Positions 1-34,228 of a DNA stretch of 62,831 nt are shown here, piece after piece; position 1 is the stretch's first letter; every line of letters begins with the position of its first letter. This DNA is from Candidatus Cloacimonadota bacterium (GTDB taxonomy: Bacteria; Cloacimonadota; Cloacimonadia; Cloacimonadales; Cloacimonadaceae). Below the pieces are notes generated by a model that had not been told where the DNA came from, did not search any database, and worked only from the letters and a program-made list of their open reading frames with translations. Location of the stretch: assembly GCA_028706475.1 (NCBI GenBank), contig JAQWBI010000006.1:1-62831 (forward strand). The letters run 5' to 3'. A program made the translations under genes and the position numbers.

Positions 1-2
1 AT

Positions 3-59
3 ATCGAAGAGATGGATAAATCCATATCTGCTCTAAAAGGGTATCGCAAAGCTGGATAA
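3..59 (+). CDS. C-terminal tail of an unidentified gene (partial)
   Basis: An open frame enters from the left edge and ends at TAA (57-59), giving an 18-residue tail that ends LKGYRKAG. The residues are charged and plausible as coding sequence, but the fragment is too short to name. It would be convergent with the tricorn gene, whose stop lies 67 bases further on. It could be a chance open frame. Confidence 0.3.
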   Translation: MEEMDKSISALKGYRKAG

Positions 60-126
60 TGACATACGAACTATTTCTCGCTAGCGACACTCCATTTTCC
101 AAGCACTTAGGTGTAGGAAAGATTAG

Positions 127-3100
127 TTATCTGGAGGCCAGATCGGGTTTATTTGAGAAATCAGGCTTAAGAGGTGGATTCTTCTTGATATCTTCCAGCA
201 CTACTTTGATGGCAGTATCCAATTGCGGATCTTTTCCTTGGGCGTAGTCCTGCGGCATGTTGTCCACTTCGATATCGGGGTCGGTACCATAGTTTTCCAC
301 GCCCCAACCCACATCTTTGAACCAGAAAGAGAATTCAGGTTGAGTAGTGATGGTGCCATCCACCAACCAGTTACGTGGCCAGAAGCCTATCACACCGCCC
401 CAAGTTCGCTTTCCAACCAGTTTTCCCAGCTTCATCAGTTTAAAGGCATGGGAAAAGATGTCGCCATCGCTCCCTGCTGCTTCGTTTGTAAGACACACCA
501 GTGATCCGGCCGGAGCTTCACTGGGGTATGGATCATAGCCAAACCAACGGGTGCAGTCGTAAGCGATGCGTTTGCGTGCCAGCTTTTCCAGCAGCAGAGG
601 TGAAACCGAGCCGCCACCGTTGTAGCGGACATCCACCACCAGTCCTTCAAAATCCAATTCACTCAAGAAATAGCGATGGAATTCCTTCAGTCCTTCTCGG
701 CCCATATCAGGAATGTGGATGTAACCGACTTTCCCTTTGCTCTTCTGGTGAACATATTCGCGATTTGCCTCCACCCAATCCCGATAGCGAAGGGCAGATT
801 CATCTGCTATAGGAGTTACTGTTACCAGCTTCTTGTTGCGTCCCCGAGCATCCGTAACCAACAGCTGAACCTTGGTACCGGCATAATTTACCAGACATCG
901 TTCAGGTGTTTGTTCTGCGCTGAGGTGAATGCCGTTGATCTCTTTTACGATGCTGCCTGCAGGAACGTTTATTCCCAGATCCATCAATGGCGAGCGGCTA
1001 TTGCTTTCCCAAAAATCCCCTTTGATGATGCGGTCTATCTTCCAGCGTTGATTCCTGGCATTAAAGCTCCAATCCACAGCTAATTTGCCCAATGGATATG
1101 ATGGGCCCGTACGGTAGTCTCCACCAAATTCGTAACAATGTGAAGTACCCAGTTCGCCCTGCATTTCCCACATCAGATCAGAGAATTCTCCCCTGCAACC
1201 CACTCGTTCTACCAAAGGATAATATAGTTTATACACTCGTTTCCAGTCGATATTGGACATCGTTTCGTTCCAGAAGTAGTACTTTTGCAAACGCCATCCT
1301 TCGCGGAACATCTGTTTCCATTCTTGCAGCGGTTCAATCTCTACTTTAAAGCGGTTCAGGTCTATCCATCCAGTCTCTCTGCCTGGTTTCATCTCCTTGG
1401 GCAGATCACTTTTGGGATCACGTTTGGTAGAGATGATGCGAACCTGTTTATTTGCCCGGATCAGGATCGCCGATCTGTCTATATTGAAGGTATAGGAGTG
1501 TACTCCGGCTAAAAAGAGTTGCTCTTCCATCTTCTCCAGATCATAACAGTAGATATCGACTTGAGTCTCTTGATTTTCGACACGAACCTTTGTATAGTCG
1601 TATTTGAAGTAGAAGATCTTGTTTGGAATGGCAGCCAGGCCTCCCAAATACATTGCTTCAACAGGTATCTCGACGATCCGTTCGCTGATGCCGTCAAAAT
1701 CGATCTCAACCGGTTCTACTTTGGGCTGTTTTTTATCCTTCTTTTTGTCGTCTTTCTGCTCCGGTTTAAGCTCCAGGGCTTTGGGATCAGGATTGAAAGG
1801 AGAGCGGGTTTCCTTTTTGAGTGTGATCAGATAGGGCTTTCTGTCTTTAATAAAGGAAAAGGAAAACTGCATGCTGTCGCTTACCGGCTCAAAAGTGCGG
1901 CTGGATACAAAATACAGATATTTCCCTTCCGGATCAAAGCAGGGATCAAGGTCAAACTTTACAGGATTGGTGATGGCGTGTGTTTCCCGCTTTTGTAAGT
2001 CGTAGATTTTTATTCTGCTTGTAAGCCGGTTTTCCTGGTTTGAATATGCAATCCAGCGACTATCCGGAGACCAGTCGTATCCCTCAATCAAACCGAATTT
2101 GTTTTGATCTATTTTGATCAATTCTTCTGTATCCAGATTCAAGACACACAGTTCATTTCGATGATTCGAGAAGGCGATCCATTTGCCGCAGGGAGAAGGA
2201 ACAAACTCGTAAGGTCTGCCAAAATCACCTTTGAACATTCTGGGCTTGGTTATGGAATCCACAGAACCATAATCCGCCCGGATCGGATACAGCTCAAAAT
2301 GCTCGATATCGCCTTCATCGGACACGGTAAGCATACCTTTATTATTCGGGAGAATGGTGCTGCAATAGTAATGTACGCCTTGCTTTTTGCCATATTGCTG
2401 GATACTGCCTTCCCAGGCTCCTCCGCAAAAGGCTTTACCACGGATGTCCATACAAACCGAACCGGCATCGGGACTGAGAGTGACGCTGTTCATGTACTTT
2501 CCCGGTTCTACAAACTTACGATAAACCTGAACTCTGGGACTACGATATTCGATTTTGATTTTCTTATACTTGTCGCTGGCAACATCCAATGAATAGAGGT
2601 CTCCGCCGGCTTGCCAGACGATGCTTTTACCGTCGGTTTTGGCATTGCGAGCGTAGTAATCTGTATGTGAACTATGTTTGCGGATGTCTTTGCCTTTTAG
2701 ATCTGCGGAATAGATATTGCCGATGCCTTCGTGGTCTGAGATGAAGTAGATTCTATCATTTATCCACATAGGGCAGCTGAGGTTGCTGTTCAGATCCAAA
2801 TACCGGCGAAACTTACCCTTACCATCAGGATCAATCAGAAAATACCCAGCAGTGCCTCCCCGATACCTTTTCCAGCGAGCGGGATCGGTGGTATTACGAC
2901 CCAATACCACACCTTTTGTGCCAAACGCGATACTGAGTGCAGGGCCATAGTTAAGTTTTACCGGTGGCATTCCATCCAGCCCCACTTCCCAAAGAAACAA
3001 CTCACGGATAGTAAATGATCCATAAGTGGTGGCATAAATAATCCTGTCACCTTTCCAGCAAAGCGGGATACAATTGCATCCCTGCCAGGTTAATCGTGTG

Positions 3101-23146: not shown

Positions 23147-23243
23147 ACATAGTCTGATTTTTCCTTTTGAACAAACAAGCCGGATTTTACCCTGTTATCT
23201 GACAATTTCCCATCTCTCAGAAGCACAATATCGCTTATCTAAT
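23147..23243 (+). repeat. 97-bp perfect direct repeat, copy 1
   Basis: Identical over 97 bases to 24755-24851, beginning ACATAGTCTGATTTTTCC and ending TATCGCTTATCTAAT. It ends directly before the TGACA...TTTGGCAA array. Flanking bases differ on both sides, so the limits are sharp. Confidence 0.95.
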
Positions 23244-23246
23244 TAT

Positions 23247-23472
23247 GGGGTGACAGGGAGTTTGGCAAGAGATATATTAGTGTTAAAAGTGGTGCAAAGG
23301 TGCTATAATAAAGGGGAATACCACTGAAACCAGGGGTGACAGGAAGTTTGGCAAAAAACGGGGGAAATGGAGGTTGAGTGACAACAATTTGGCAAAAACA
23401 TAGCGGTGAGGTGAGTGACAACAATTTGGCAAAAACTGATAATCAATGGGATTTGCCAAAAGTTTGGCAAAA
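23247..23472 (+). repeat. Tandem TGACA-n-TTTGGCAA motif array with terminal palindrome
   Basis: GGGGTGACAGGGAGTTTGGC-AA at 23247-23268, GGGGTGACAGGAAGTTTGGC-AA at 23333-23354, TGACAACAATTTGGCAAAAA at 23379-23398 and the same at 23416-23435, then TTTGCCAAA-AG-TTTGGCAAA at 23452-23471. TGACA start-to-start spacings are 86, 42 and 37 bases. Irregular spacing and about 20-base units suit a multi-site transposase-binding end better than CRISPR or a simple tandem repeat. Confidence 0.7.
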
Positions 23473-23498
23473 CATGGGTAAGATATACCCCATGCCAG

Positions 23499-23765
23499 TT
23501 AAAACGTGTTTCTGCACCGAGGGCACACTATCTTGCCACCGAGTATAGCATAGTAGAATATGCCAGGGATCAAGAATAACAAAAGCAACACACAGCCTAT
23601 AACATTGCTGGCAGCACCGGCATAAGTGTTCTTTGTTCCTGAGTATCCACAACGTGGACAAGTTATCGTGACCGCCTTATCCTTTTTGAGATTCTCCTTG
23701 TGACTATAGACAAGTACAACGACAATTACGACAATGACTGACACTATTTGAATGACTTCTTCCAC
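23499..23765 (-). CDS. Small membrane protein with paired CxxC zinc ribbon
   Basis: An 88-residue protein: N-terminal membrane helix (about 5-20, IVSVIVVIVVVLVYS), then CPRCGYSG, a second helix (about 57-72, IGCVLLLLFLIPGIFYYA), then CPRCRNTF. The two CPRC pairs could form one zinc ribbon across the membrane loop. The start is GTG with GAGG six bases upstream. It begins 11 bases after the repressor stop on the same strand, so it is probably co-transcribed with the repressor, as accessory lysogeny genes often are. Function unknown. Confidence 0.7.
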   Translation of the reverse strand: MEEVIQIVSVIVVIVVVLVYSHKENLKKDKAVTITCPRCGYSGTKNTYAGAASNVIGCVLLLLFLIPGIFYYAILGGKIVCPRCRNTF

Positions 23766-23776
23766 TATAAACCTCG

Positions 23777-24430
23777 CTATATGTATTTGCGAAGCACAGC
23801 GACCAGGCGTCCGATTATCTTAATGTCGGGGCTGTGCTCATCGTATTCAATGATTGGGTGGGTGGGGTTGACCGGTACAAGCAGACAGCGTTTGCACCGG
23901 TGATCATAGACCAGACGTTTGATCAATAGACCATCAACTGAACGGAAGGCGCAAAAGTATCCATTGTAATCCACATCAAACTGCCAGCCGGATATGATGG
24001 CATAATCTCCGGTATGCAGCTCTGGTTCCATTGACACCCCATTAACGCGAAAGCAGTAAAAGGGGCCTGGGATGTTAGTGATCGCTTCGCTGGGGATAGA
24101 AATGGATTCGGTGGGTTCGAGGTCTTCAGCTTCAATGCCAATGCCGGCTGCGATATCTGCATATACCGGGATGGTGAGGACTCCGGCTCCAGGGGGATTC
24201 TCGCGCGCGTGCGTACTATTAAACATGTCACCCTTGCCGGTGATGAGCCAGTTGAGATTAACATTGTAGATTTCGCTTATTCGTTTTAAGGCGTCGATTG
24301 ATGGGCGGTATCCTGGCCGATTAAACCAATCGGACACGTTCCCCTGAGACAATCCGAGCTGCTCGGCAAACTTTTTTTTGCTAAGTTTGAGTGAGCTTAA
24401 CAGCTCATTTAGCAGCATCTTATAATCCAT
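23777..24430 (-). CDS. Phage-type repressor: XRE helix-turn-helix plus S24 (LexA/CI) peptidase
   Basis: A 217-residue repressor. Residues about 5-65 form a helix-turn-helix (KKFAEQLGLSQGNVSDWFNR). The C-terminal half is an S24 self-cleavage domain with Ser in NGVSMEPELHTGDY and Lys in GLLIKRL as the dyad. An Ala-Gly pair in ADIAAGIG is a candidate self-cleavage site, so induction by RecA filaments (SOS) is plausible. The ATG at 24430 follows AGGA by six bases; a TTG one codon upstream is possible. It faces a Ner/Cro-like gene across shared operators, the classical lysogeny-switch arrangement. Confidence 0.88.
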   Translation of the reverse strand: MDYKMLLNELLSSLKLSKKKFAEQLGLSQGNVSDWFNRPGYRPSIDALKRISEIYNVNLNWLITGKGDMFNSTHARENPPGAGVLTIPVYADIAAGIGIEAEDLEPTESISIPSEAITNIPGPFYCFRVNGVSMEPELHTGDYAIISGWQFDVDYNGYFCAFRSVDGLLIKRLVYDHRCKRCLLVPVNPTHPIIEYDEHSPDIKIIGRLVAVLRKYI

Positions 24431-24442
24431 CAATCATCCTTC

Positions 24443-24495
24443 ATAACGCTAAAGCGTTATATTCTGCTTGACAGGATACGCTCATGCGTTATCTT
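24443..24495. promoter_or_regulatory. Switch region: two operators and the Ner-like promoter
   Basis: Operator 1 is the perfect palindrome ATAACGC-TAAA-GCGTTAT (24443-24460). Operator 2, GATACGCTCATGCGTTATC (24475-24493), is the same site with one base missing in the left arm. TTGACA (24468-24473), 16 bases, TATCTT (24490-24495) forms a rightward promoter that operator 2 covers. The repressor, the Ner-like protein or both probably bind the ATAACGC/GCGTTAT half-sites. Confidence 0.75.
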
Positions 24496-24533
24496 GTCCA
24501 CATATGCAAACAAGATAATGTAATGGAGTTCAG

Positions 24534-24920
24534 ATGTCAAGGAAAAAGGATACTCAAGACCCGAGGCCGACAGGCAAACAGATCCGCAAGGCTCTGATAG
24601 ATATTGATCAGACCCCCATGGATCTGGCAAAAGCGATGGGAGTCAGCGCATATTACATTCGCGAAATATACGCTGAGCGGAGAGCTGCCAGAGATATGCG
24701 CAAAAAGATCGCGGCATACCTGGCCACGCAATACCGACGCTATGGCTACCCCTTACATAGTCTGATTTTTCCTTTTGAACAAACAAGCCGGATTTTACCC
24801 TGTTATCTGACAATTTCCCATCTCTCAGAAGCACAATATCGCTTATCTAATCCACTGCTATTCATAATAGTTAAGTACATATCCCATAGAAATATGAGAA
24901 AAAAGATAATTAAATCTTGA
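24534..24920 (+). CDS. Ner/Cro-like helix-turn-helix regulator, C terminus fused to repeat DNA
   Basis: A 128-codon frame whose first 75 or so residues look like a small phage DNA-binding protein (TPMDLAKAMGVSAYYIREIY is the helix-turn-helix). The ATG has GGAG seven bases before it and lies downstream of the promoter at 24468-24495. From residue 75 on the frame is translated from copy 2 of the 97-bp repeat and beyond, the same peptide seen in copy 1 outside any gene, so the natural C terminus has been lost. The stop lies inside the dcw promoter. Truncated but possibly still functional. Confidence 0.65.
   Translation: MSRKKDTQDPRPTGKQIRKALIDIDQTPMDLAKAMGVSAYYIREIYAERRAARDMRKKIAAYLATQYRRYGYPLHSLIFPFEQTSRILPCYLTISHLSEAQYRLSNPLLFIIVKYISHRNMRKKIIKS
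24755..24851 (+). repeat. 97-bp perfect direct repeat, copy 2
   Basis: Exact copy of 23147-23243. It interrupts the Ner-like frame and lies only about 65 bases before the dcw promoter. The identity of all 97 bases indicates a recent duplication or a site under ongoing exchange. Confidence 0.95.
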
Positions 24921-24960
24921 CAAGAAAAGTAGGATGTCATATAGGTGTCACAGGATGTCA
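24917..24960 (+). promoter_or_regulatory. dcw promoter with three MraZ-type direct repeats
   Basis: TTGACA (24917-24922), 17 bases, TATAGG (24940-24945) forms a good promoter about 120 bases before mraZ. Three copies of AGG(A)TGTCA overlap and follow it, with TGTCA at 24935, 24946 and 24956, that is 11 and 10 bases apart, about one helical turn. Known MraZ operators are short direct repeats at 10-bp period over the mraZ promoter, so autorepression by MraZ is a reasonable inference even though the motif differs from TGGGN. Confidence 0.7.
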
Positions 24961-25065
24961 TAATATCTCAGATAAATTCAAAAAGTCTCAAAATAGGAAG
25001 CGCTGATACTAAGAAAACGCAAGCGCAACTCAGATTAGGTTCAAACAGCAGAAAAAGGAAAGACC

Positions 25066-25506
25066 ATGTCCGGTGAATTTTTAGGTATCTTCGAAAACTC
25101 AGTACACAAGCAGCGCGTGATTATTCCGGCCAGTTTCAAGAAGAAATTCGCAGAAACAGCCATGCGCTCGGTTGTGGTTACCATGGGGCCTTCAAACACC
25201 ATCGCCATCTACCCTCTCGATAGCTGGAAAAGCACTTTGGAACGCCTGAAAGAAGGTGACGAAAGAGCAAAAAGACTGCGTACTCAACTGATCGATTTTG
25301 CGATGATGGAACAAGAACTGGAAGGACCCGGTAGAGTGAGGATTCACGAATTGCTTTTGAATGAAGTAGGGATCGAAGACAGCGTGATCATCAAAGGCGA
25401 GGGGCATTATATTTCCTTGTGGAATCCTGAAATCTACGCCAAGGTTCGGCAGAGCAAGCTGAAAGCTCATCGCGATACTTTCACCAGTGAGGACTACCAA
25501 CTGTGA
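25066..25506 (+). CDS. mraZ: Division/cell-wall cluster regulator MraZ
   Basis: A 146-residue MraZ with two SpoVT/AbrB-like halves: residues 1-75 (FLGIFENSVHKQRVIIPASF) and 76-146 (GRVRIHELLLNEVGI). MraZ is an oligomeric DNA-binding repressor of its own cluster. The start has AAAGGAAAG upstream. It opens the dcw cluster and overlaps rsmH by four bases (GTGA). The candidate binding repeats are at 24931-24960. Confidence 0.95.
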   Translation: MSGEFLGIFENSVHKQRVIIPASFKKKFAETAMRSVVVTMGPSNTIAIYPLDSWKSTLERLKEGDERAKRLRTQLIDFAMMEQELEGPGRVRIHELLLNEVGIEDSVIIKGEGHYISLWNPEIYAKVRQSKLKAHRDTFTSEDYQL

Positions 25507-31768: not shown

Positions 31769-32871
31769 TGTTGTATCACCTTCTATACCCTTTAGCCGAT
31801 TACTCGATCATTTTCAACGTGTTTCGTTATGTAACCTTTCGCTCCATCGGTGCCTTTATTACAGCGCTAGTCTGCACCTTACTCTTTGGTCCGCCTTTCA
31901 TACGGATGCTAAAAAGGAAATCAGCAGTAGAAAGCATCGATGAAGATATGCCTGAGAAGCACAGGATAAAAGCAGGAACACCTACGATGGGAGGTTTAAT
32001 CATCTTGGTAGCAATGTTGGTGGCTTCCCTGTTTTGGAACATCCTGACCAACTCCGCCATCCTGATGATGTATCTGAGTACCGTATGGCTTGGTGTTCTG
32101 GGATTTTTGGATGATTACCTGAAGAACTTTGTAAAAGCAAAGAAAGGCCTGATCCCAAAGTATAAGCTCTGGGGGCAAATATCCATAGCTCTCATCCTCA
32201 CCTTGGCCATATACTACAGTTCATCTCCGGCAGATCAGATCACAAACTTGCAGATACCCTTCTTTAAGAACCTGATCCTGCCTCTGGGCTGGCTCTTTAT
32301 TCCTTTCGTGGTGTTCATGATCACAGGTAGTTCAAACGCGGTTAATCTCACCGATGGTCTGGACGGTTTGGCTGCCGGAACCTTGGCTTTATCTGCCTTG
32401 GGACTGGGTATCATGAGCTATCTGAAAGGCAACTTCATCACAGCAGACTATCTGAATCTGGAGTACATCTATAATGCCGGTGAACTCACGGTTTTCATAT
32501 CCGGCATGATGGGAGCACTGATCGGTTTTCTGTGGTACAATAGCTATCCCGCACAAGTGTTTATGGGTGATACCGGATCACTGGCTTTGGGTGGCATTTT
32601 GGCTGTGATATCCGTTCTATTGAAAGAGCAGATTTTCCTGGTCATCATCGGCTTTATATTCGTTGTGGAGACTTTCAGCGTGATCTTTCAAAGATACTGG
32701 TTCAAATATACTAAAAGAAAGTATGGTGCAGGGCGCAGATTATTCTTGTGCGCGCCCATTCATCATCACTACGAATTGAAGGGCATCCACGAGACCAAGA
32801 TTGTGATCCGTTTCTACATTGTGGCAATCCTGCTGGTCGCCATTGGTTTGAGCACTATTAAACTTCGATAA
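31768..32871 (+). CDS. mraY: Phospho-MurNAc-pentapeptide transferase MraY
   Basis: A 367-residue polytopic enzyme that makes lipid I. Family motifs are seen in order: GTPTMGG (about 70-76), DDYLKN (about 115-120), NLTDGLDGLAAG (about 192-203), MGDTGSLALGG (about 266-276) and the HHHYELKG loop (about 331-338). About ten membrane helices are visible. It shares one base with murEF (TGATG). Length is typical. Confidence 0.97.
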   Translation: MLYHLLYPLADYSIIFNVFRYVTFRSIGAFITALVCTLLFGPPFIRMLKRKSAVESIDEDMPEKHRIKAGTPTMGGLIILVAMLVASLFWNILTNSAILMMYLSTVWLGVLGFLDDYLKNFVKAKKGLIPKYKLWGQISIALILTLAIYYSSSPADQITNLQIPFFKNLILPLGWLFIPFVVFMITGSSNAVNLTDGLDGLAAGTLALSALGLGIMSYLKGNFITADYLNLEYIYNAGELTVFISGMMGALIGFLWYNSYPAQVFMGDTGSLALGGILAVISVLLKEQIFLVIIGFIFVVETFSVIFQRYWFKYTKRKYGAGRRLFLCAPIHHHYELKGIHETKIVIRFYIVAILLVAIGLSTIKLR

Positions 32872-32881
32872 AGGACTACTA

Positions 32882-34228
32882 ATGTTTAACACCTCAGTGA
32901 AGTATGGCATATTGGGTTTGGCACGCAGTGGCATAGCAGCCGCATACAAGATCAAGGATTTGGGCGGAAAAGCCTTCTTGAGTGAACTCTTACCTGCAGA
33001 AAAGATCGAATCCTCTGAAGCATTAACCCGGGATTTCGAATGCGAATTTGGCGGGCATAGCGACAGACTTCTGGAACTTGATACATGGATTGTGAGCCCG
33101 GGTATCCCCCTGAATGCACCTATTATTAGAAAAGGCAGACAAAAGGGAATCAAGCTGATCTCTGAGATCGAGTTCGGCTGGCAGATAAAAGCCCCAGATA
33201 GCCAGGTGATAGCAGTAACCGGATCGAACGGGAAAAGCACTACCGCTTCACTGATCTATCATGTCCTCAAGAATTCAGGAAGGAAGTGCATCCTGGCTGG
33301 TAACATCGGAGATGCTTTTTGCTCCTTCCCCATTCATAAACCCGGAATTGAGTACATAGTGCTGGAAATCAGCAGCTTTCAGCTAGATATCATCACCAGT
33401 TTTGCTCCACATGTGGCAGTCCTCTTGAATCTCAGTCCAGATCATTTAAACAGATACAAAAGCTTTGGTGATTATTGTAACAGTAAAATGCGTATCTTCC
33501 GCTATCAGACGGCACAGGATTTCGCTGTGCTGTACCTTGATTCCGAAGAAATTGTGCGCCGGTCAGACAATCTAAAAGCTTGGAAATTATACTTTAGTAA
33601 AGAGGCAAAGAACGCTCCCGCACATCTAGACGGCAAGTTCATCCATTTAGGAGAATACCAGATGTCCATATTCGAACTTCCTATAAAGGGTCCTCACAAT
33701 CATCTGAATGCAATGGCAGCACTGCTTTGCGCTCAGGCACTGGAAATGGATATCCCCTCCGTGATGCAGAACATGAAGTCTTTCCAGGCTTTACCACATC
33801 GTCTGGAGTATGTAGAGAGTGTAAACGGAGTAAATTTCTACAACGATTCCAAGGCCACAAACACTGATTCCGTTCGCTGTGCTTTGGAATCCTTCGATCG
33901 TCCAATCCGCATAATATTAGGTGGCTCGGATAAAGGAGAGGACTACGCTCAGATTACACAGAACCTTCAGGAGCATGTCATCAGAGCGTATATAACCGGA
34001 GAATCGCGTTATAAAATGCAGCAAGCATGGCTGGGGAAAGTACCCATGGTCTTGGTTGACGATTTCGAAGACTGCATCCACATGGCTTTCGAAGAGGCCA
34101 CAATTGGGGAGAATATCGTGCTTAGTCCTGCATGTGCCAGCTATGATAAGTTCAAGAACTTTGAACAACGGGGCGATACATTCAAGGAAATCGTAAGGAA
34201 ACTGAAACGTGAAAAGGAACAGGCTTAG
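32882..34228 (+). CDS. murD: UDP-MurNAc-L-alanine:D-glutamate ligase MurD
   Basis: A 448-residue Mur ligase adding D-glutamate. The N-terminal Rossmann domain begins YGILGLARSGIAA; the P-loop is TGSNGKSTTAS (about 113-123); FYNDSKATN and the C-terminal IILGGSDKGEDY are MurD signatures. A ribosome site AAGGAC lies six bases before the ATG. The 3' end overlaps ftsW by 20 bases. Confidence 0.96.
   Translation: MFNTSVKYGILGLARSGIAAAYKIKDLGGKAFLSELLPAEKIESSEALTRDFECEFGGHSDRLLELDTWIVSPGIPLNAPIIRKGRQKGIKLISEIEFGWQIKAPDSQVIAVTGSNGKSTTASLIYHVLKNSGRKCILAGNIGDAFCSFPIHKPGIEYIVLEISSFQLDIITSFAPHVAVLLNLSPDHLNRYKSFGDYCNSKMRIFRYQTAQDFAVLYLDSEEIVRRSDNLKAWKLYFSKEAKNAPAHLDGKFIHLGEYQMSIFELPIKGPHNHLNAMAALLCAQALEMDIPSVMQNMKSFQALPHRLEYVESVNGVNFYNDSKATNTDSVRCALESFDRPIRIILGGSDKGEDYAQITQNLQEHVIRAYITGESRYKMQQAWLGKVPMVLVDDFEDCIHMAFEEATIGENIVLSPACASYDKFKNFEQRGDTFKEIVRKLKREKEQA

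Follow-up and report, generated by a model that had tools for sequence, protein, structure and literature searches.

The window, by which we mean the whole stretch of 62,831 nucleotides analysed here from a Candidatus Cloacimonadota draft genome, holds a short cassette ahead of mraZ and the cell-division genes. From left to right it comprises a motif array, two leftward genes (first the accessory one, then that of an S24 repressor), operators and a rightward Ner-like frame, with a copy of a 97-bp direct repeat at each side. The features of the locus are given below, with G and C numbers standing for related genomes and their contigs.

23147..23243, + strand: copy 1 of the perfect 97-bp repeat, the host left flank, ending with CTAAT; the element terminus starts at 23244
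23239..23243, + strand: CTAAT, the presumed 5-bp target, by analogy with ACAAG (G010:C71) and TAAAG (G062), which are placed likewise with respect to TATGGGG
23244..23268, + strand: element left terminus TATGGGGTGACAGGGAGTTTGGCAA, found too in G062 (both ends), in G071 and at the L end of G010
23251..23470, + strand: transposase-site-like motif array, TGMCAn4-5TTTGGCAA, with equivalents, inverted, at both G010:C71 ends
23499..23765, - strand: accessory gene, 88 aa, with transmembrane segments and two CPxC pairs, no family match
23777..24433, - strand: S24 (LexA/CI-type) repressor, 218 aa, start 24430 or 24433 (PF00717, 1.7e-16; phrog_4, 5.9e-39)
24443..24460, no strand: operator-like perfect palindrome ATAACGCTAAAGCGTTAT
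24468..24495, + strand: putative rightward early promoter TTGACA-N16-TATCTT, with a similar box in the same place in G062, G035 and G010
24475..24493, no strand: another operator-like palindrome, GATACGCTCATGCGTTATC, lying within the early promoter and read from the sequence
24512..24540, - strand: predicted leftward promoter for the repressor, TTGACA-N17-TATCTT, a consensus match only
24534..24755, + strand: Ner-like gene that retains 74 of ~85 phage codons (phrog_1468 'transcriptional repressor', 7e-9)
24743..24755, - strand: right border of the cassette, which inverted reads TAAGGGGTAGCCA and resembles the element terminus
24755..24851, + strand: copy 2 of the perfect 97-bp repeat, left flank continuing into right flank, the empty-site configuration
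25066-25506: mraZ (PF02381)

The element starts at 23244, immediately 3' of CTAAT, and the array motif begins at five positions behind it (23251, 23337, 23379, 23416 and 23453). Its clustering is pronounced: TTTGGCAA has six copies in 23261-23463 versus four in the other ~62.6 kb of the window, and TGACANNNANTTTGGCAA has two matches, both at the array and nowhere else in the 2.06-Mb genome, with none for the reversed control pattern. Judging by the ends that its relatives share, the TGMCAn4-5TTTGGCAA array is the transposase-site array of a Mu-like element.

No relative of the accessory gene was found in 59 other related genomes searched, and unrelated small genes occupy its position in G010, G062 and G071. 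The neighbouring repressor retains, in alignment, the AAG that we take to be the cleavage site together with the Ser and Lys that we assign as S24 repressor residues. When we compared it (window 23777-24433) with L044 279-929 and L163 1967-2602, its N-terminal DNA-binding domain proved 87% identical to the G026 repressor and its C-terminal S24 sensor domain 66% identical to the Mu-like repressor of G062. The repressor is therefore a mosaic whose immunity specificity was exchanged sharply, as a whole module.

The early promoter, TTGACA-N16-TATCTTGTCC, is identical to that of G062 in both hexamers and in GTCC, and boxes of the TTGACA-N16/18-TATCTT(GTCC) type are present in G062, G035 and G010. 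The frame downstream of it is 62.5% identical to the 85-aa Ner of G062 and 50-55% to that of G035, and its family, phrog_1468, is also matched by the ner-positioned gene of an intact Mu-like relative (2.3e-11). Since the repressor is intact and the promoter matches that of G062, it is plausible that the resident cell expresses the repressor and is thereby immune to phages using the same operators.

Relatives that carry the same end

The sequence-only reading had likened this arrangement to the left end and immunity region of a Mu-like phage, and a search for the array beside MuA/MuB-like genes in related genomes bore this out: the same terminus and array stand on MuA/MuB-bearing elements, the clearest case being contig C71 of the congener G010. 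This contig carries an intact prophage of ~29.8 kb with inverted arrays at both sides and the ends TATGGGGTGACATG... and, inverted, TATCCGTTGCCACG..., and ACAAG stands at each junction (...GCTATTACAAG|TATGGGG and CGGATA|ACAAG|GATTATATC). Inward from its left end, an accessory gene comes first and an S24 repressor second. Next is a short frame, HTH-like by eye, where ner would be expected; it precedes the genes for a MuA-like transposase of 908 aa (phrog_310, 1.2e-56; PF09299) and a MuB/TniB-like ATPase, and deeper in the element are genes for a portal, a terminase, a Mu I protease-like product and a tape measure. G010 has the right terminus once more, as TATCCGTTGCCACGAGGTTTGGCA, at G010:C16:4803-4826 on the minus strand (L165); no array or phage genes adjoin this copy, which may be a solo end or another remnant.

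The nearest immunity region is that of G062, whose prophage is split over two contigs, C439 (L end, accessory gene, repressor and Ner) and C4 (R end); both ends carry identical 25-bp termini, TATGGGGTGACAAGTAGTTTGGCAA, with TAAAG beside each. The terminus TATGGGGTGACA is thus common to elements encoding a MuA-type transposase, adjoining the phrog_310/PF09299 transposase in G010:C71 and recurring in G062 and G071, and it is a bona fide element end in G010:C71 and G062. The target duplication is 5 bp in both (ACAAG in G010, TAAAG in G062); in the window, which is without a right end, CTAAT is assigned by analogy only.

The likeness to G010:C71 covers the first 12 bp of the L end, which are identical, the site arrays, the gene order and the early promoter box, whereas the complete element differs in its unrelated accessory gene, a repressor only 34% identical and a Ner of another type. 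G062 likewise differs in its repressor DNA-binding domain and operators, and in having both ends present. The order of a leftward repressor and a rightward Ner-like gene, which in the window stands behind the left end, is the same in G062, G010 and G035. On G035:C28 the repressor (39% identical) and Ner (55%) lie directly ahead of MuA-like (phrog_310, 3.5e-79) and MuB-like genes; the end motif there is of another type. By eye, this Mu-like prophage (L042/L043) appears to sit between CRISPR-like repeats and cas2-/cas1-looking genes, at ~2039-2310 and 32517-33934.

G026:C17, the first close repressor match, was set aside as a source of a matching left end: its repressor has no L end nearby, and the contig has tail genes and an end motif of another kind. 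There (L044, 279-7230) an inverted repressor and accessory gene directly adjoin tape-measure/tail genes, with a right-end-like array, GGTCACTGATTCCTGCAA, and no left end between repressor and tail genes. Such a layout may reflect a further rearrangement of a Mu-like element, a gene order of its own or a mis-join.

Compared with phage Mu (attL, repressor c, Ner) and the Mu-like D3112/B3 group, the window has the same order of terminus and array, leftward repressor, operators and rightward Ner, and its relatives share with them the MuA-/MuB-like genes that come next and the 5-bp target duplication. It differs in its S24 autoprotease-type repressor, in the accessory gene between end and repressor, in its terminus (TATGGGG, against the TGT reported for Mu-like Pseudomonas phages) and in that only the left 1.5 kb remains. 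Collectively, these comparisons show that a Mu-like transposable prophage contributed the 1.5 kb from 23244 to ~24755, which are precisely its left end.

The remainder of that phage was not found in the host genome. Outside the four small contigs C87-C90, which read N and were left out, we found no MuA-like transposase and no second terminus or right end, there being one end motif only; we therefore rejected the idea that the remainder lies elsewhere in the genome. The cassette thus lacks both the MuA-type transposase and the inverted right-end array of a functional Mu-like prophage. A search of genome contigs returned distant repressors only, phage records gave a single weak repressor match, and in IMG/VR neither the terminus pattern nor the left junction nor Ner was matched, the one match being to a distant repressor. 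In the literature we found no description of Mu-like phages in the host's bacterial family.

The 97-bp repeat and the joint inside ner

The two direct copies of the 97-bp sequence, at 23147-23243 and 24755-24851, are 100% identical, as had been claimed from the sequence, and form the only exact direct repeat of at least 30 bp in the window. They are also the longest exact direct repeat within any of the 58 host contigs examined (880 kb), where the runners-up measure 71 bp (in a repetitive coding region) and 70 bp (a dispersed repeat). We considered the other long direct repeats of the genome as similar artefacts, but they are coding or dispersed repeats, unlike the 97-bp pair. The contig's own first ~127 bp (window 1-127) recur at the ends of ~10 other contigs, a dispersed repeat that breaks the assembly.

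Closer comparison of the borders separates the two copies. To the right of copy 1 stands the element terminus (...GCTTATCTAAT|TATGGGG), to the right of copy 2 host DNA (...GCTTATCTAAT|CCACTG...), which from 24852 continues into the region ahead of mraZ; upstream of the copies the flanks differ from the very first base. Under the 5-bp rule of the relatives the target would be CTAAT and the expected empty site GCTTATCTAATCCACTG, which is exactly what copy 2 reads. Copy 1 therefore flanks the insertion on its left, and copy 2 runs from that flank into the right one with no insertion between. Among the 49 other genomes of the family we found no homologue of the 97-bp sequence and neither an empty-site nor a full-prophage allele of the locus.

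This absence from all other family genomes searched led us to reject the 97 bp as phage or attachment sequence. Nor does the locus resemble site-specific integration with att repeats, since the repeat is host flank abutting a transposon-type terminus; no integrase frame was found in the cassette. The 97-bp repeat is neither an attachment site, nor a terminal repeat, nor a normal target duplication.

The phage-derived segment stops ~310 bp upstream of mraZ. At 24931-24962, also upstream of that gene, the repeated GGATGTCAT / GGTGTCAC / GGATGTCAT may be MraZ operator boxes; they lie downstream of the insert and were left undisturbed.

The Ner-like frame was described from the sequence as cut by copy 2, and this holds: the joint lies near codon 74 of ~85, after which the open frame crosses copy 2 and ends at 24920 as a 128-aa product, with its last ~11 phage residues missing and 54 host-encoded residues fused on. 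Beyond the position of the joint the Ner proteins of G062 and G035 go on with LPR/VPR, so the phage should read CCN after TTA, and microhomology at the joint would amount to ~2 bp at most.

Origin of the remnant

Taken together, copy 1 provides the flank up to the insertion point and copy 2 the same flank onward, so that a prophage junction is joined to an empty-site copy. The 97-bp duplication would then stem either from recombination with an uninfected chromosome or from an assembly error. We consider it very probable that the locus represents the left junction of a Mu-like prophage joined inside ner to an empty-site copy, the remainder having been lost by recombination if the joint is real. 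A real joint has as its simplest routes those that need empty-site DNA in the same cell: a prophage-bearing chromosome would have recombined with such DNA, incoming or from a sister, through an exchange that would have relied on homology towards mraZ but been illegitimate within ner, where the joint allows no more than ~2 bp of microhomology. The transposase, all late genes and the right end would have been lost in this exchange, leaving a grounded remnant with a repressor that could still be produced and would keep newly arriving phages of its immunity group silent. Homology-facilitated illegitimate recombination has been described (PMC3240628), and two further papers describe how imported DNA can cure chromosomal elements (PMC4774983, PMC12637031).

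The same structure could have been created by the assembler, had the sampled population contained both a prophage-bearing and an empty allele: a left prophage branch that broke off in ner would have been connected to the branch of the empty site, and the bacterium would have the full prophage or none. We regard this as possible, with the balance tilted against it. It would account for a structure that is exactly a prophage left junction plus an empty-site allele, with repeat and insertion point coinciding, in a fragmented draft of 90 contigs whose ends overlap by de Bruijn k-mers. These overlaps, however, are 127 bp long, so the final k was probably 127, and a chimera of this kind should leave 127 bp rather than 97. 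The simplest artefact model, in which 97 bp is the assembler's k, fails on the same ground, and a repeat shorter than k requires that 127-mers across the joint came from reads or from earlier-round contigs. Moreover, no comparable structure exists among the 58 contigs and no further phage piece was found in the genome. That the repeat falls below k speaks for real DNA, without proving it.

If the joint is real, routes other than recombination with empty-site DNA in the manner set out above must also be weighed. Virions of Mu carry 50-150 bp of host DNA to the left of the L end. For Mu-like Pseudomonas phages, 50-100 nt of host DNA at virion ends have been reported (PMC4378225), and 97 bp lies within the range of packaged flanks. 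A Campbell-type capture would begin with a virion of the same prophage injected into an empty sibling and broken in ner, whereupon the left fragment (97 bp plus L to the truncated ner) would circularise and recombine through the 97 bp into the empty site. It predicts what is seen, namely a perfect repeat with its right border at the insertion point, loss of R and an end-joined border in ner, and in E. coli duplications are documented to arise when a fragment with degraded ends recircularises and undergoes a single crossover (PMC3240628). It is nonetheless a chain of rare events, and 97 bp fits without proving packaging by this phage; we hold this route to be unlikely, and slightly more so the full proposal of an "accidental vaccination", an immunity cassette acquired by homologous recombination via ~100 bp of host flank packaged at the virion left end. 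Quite improbable too is an aberrant transposition that paired the L end with a pseudo-end at the ner border, so that a mini-element landed in an empty sister at a distance of 96-97 bp from the first target. The inverted right border (TAAGGGGTAGCCA) does resemble the terminus TATGGGGTGACA at a score reached by 5.6e-5 of window sites, but the likeness, 12-13 bp long with one gap allowed, was noticed post hoc, the pseudo-end has no inner TTTGGCAA site and a 25-bp score only in the top 0.5%, and a duplication of ~96 bp is foreign to a phage family that duplicates 5 bp.

Both origins offered by the sequence-only reading fare worse. A family of compact, non-autonomous elements with a repressor switch as their sole cargo, moved in trans by a Mu-like transposase, could claim the bona fide left end and the weak terminus look-alike at the right border; the right-end site array is missing, however, the duplication is 97 bp instead of 5 bp, ner is truncated, and a scan of 50 family genomes for the terminus turned up no other such cassette. 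With the pair of termini and the regular target duplication of a trans-mobilised element missing, we consider this highly improbable. That a prophage flanked by the two repeats was deleted by exchange between them has their perfection in its favour, but we find it scarcely credible: with a family duplication of 5 bp, a lysogen at this site would have only CTAAT twice and no second 97-bp copy, so that such an exchange could not start, and exchange between direct repeats leaves one copy, not two.

That the locus is a left-end remnant of a Mu-like prophage is well supported and places it among known kinds of things; the flank duplication is unusual, with either recombination or artefact as its origin. 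A comparable case is that of 'grounded' prophages, in which a defective prophage is proposed to keep immunity while unable to leave (PMC6379469), and from which the window differs in keeping the left 1.5 kb only, with a duplicated host flank. Should the joint be an artefact, it is a warning on reading prophage remnants from draft assemblies. Should it be real, the length distribution of flank duplications would separate virion-end capture from ordinary recombination, and under virion capture the captured piece would by geometry always be the L end plus repressor, with the repeat length recording the packaging cut. The locus shows a route by which a transposable prophage may be reduced to an immunity switch, and defines the ends, the 5-bp duplication and the immunity region of a Mu-like phage group in the host's bacterial family.
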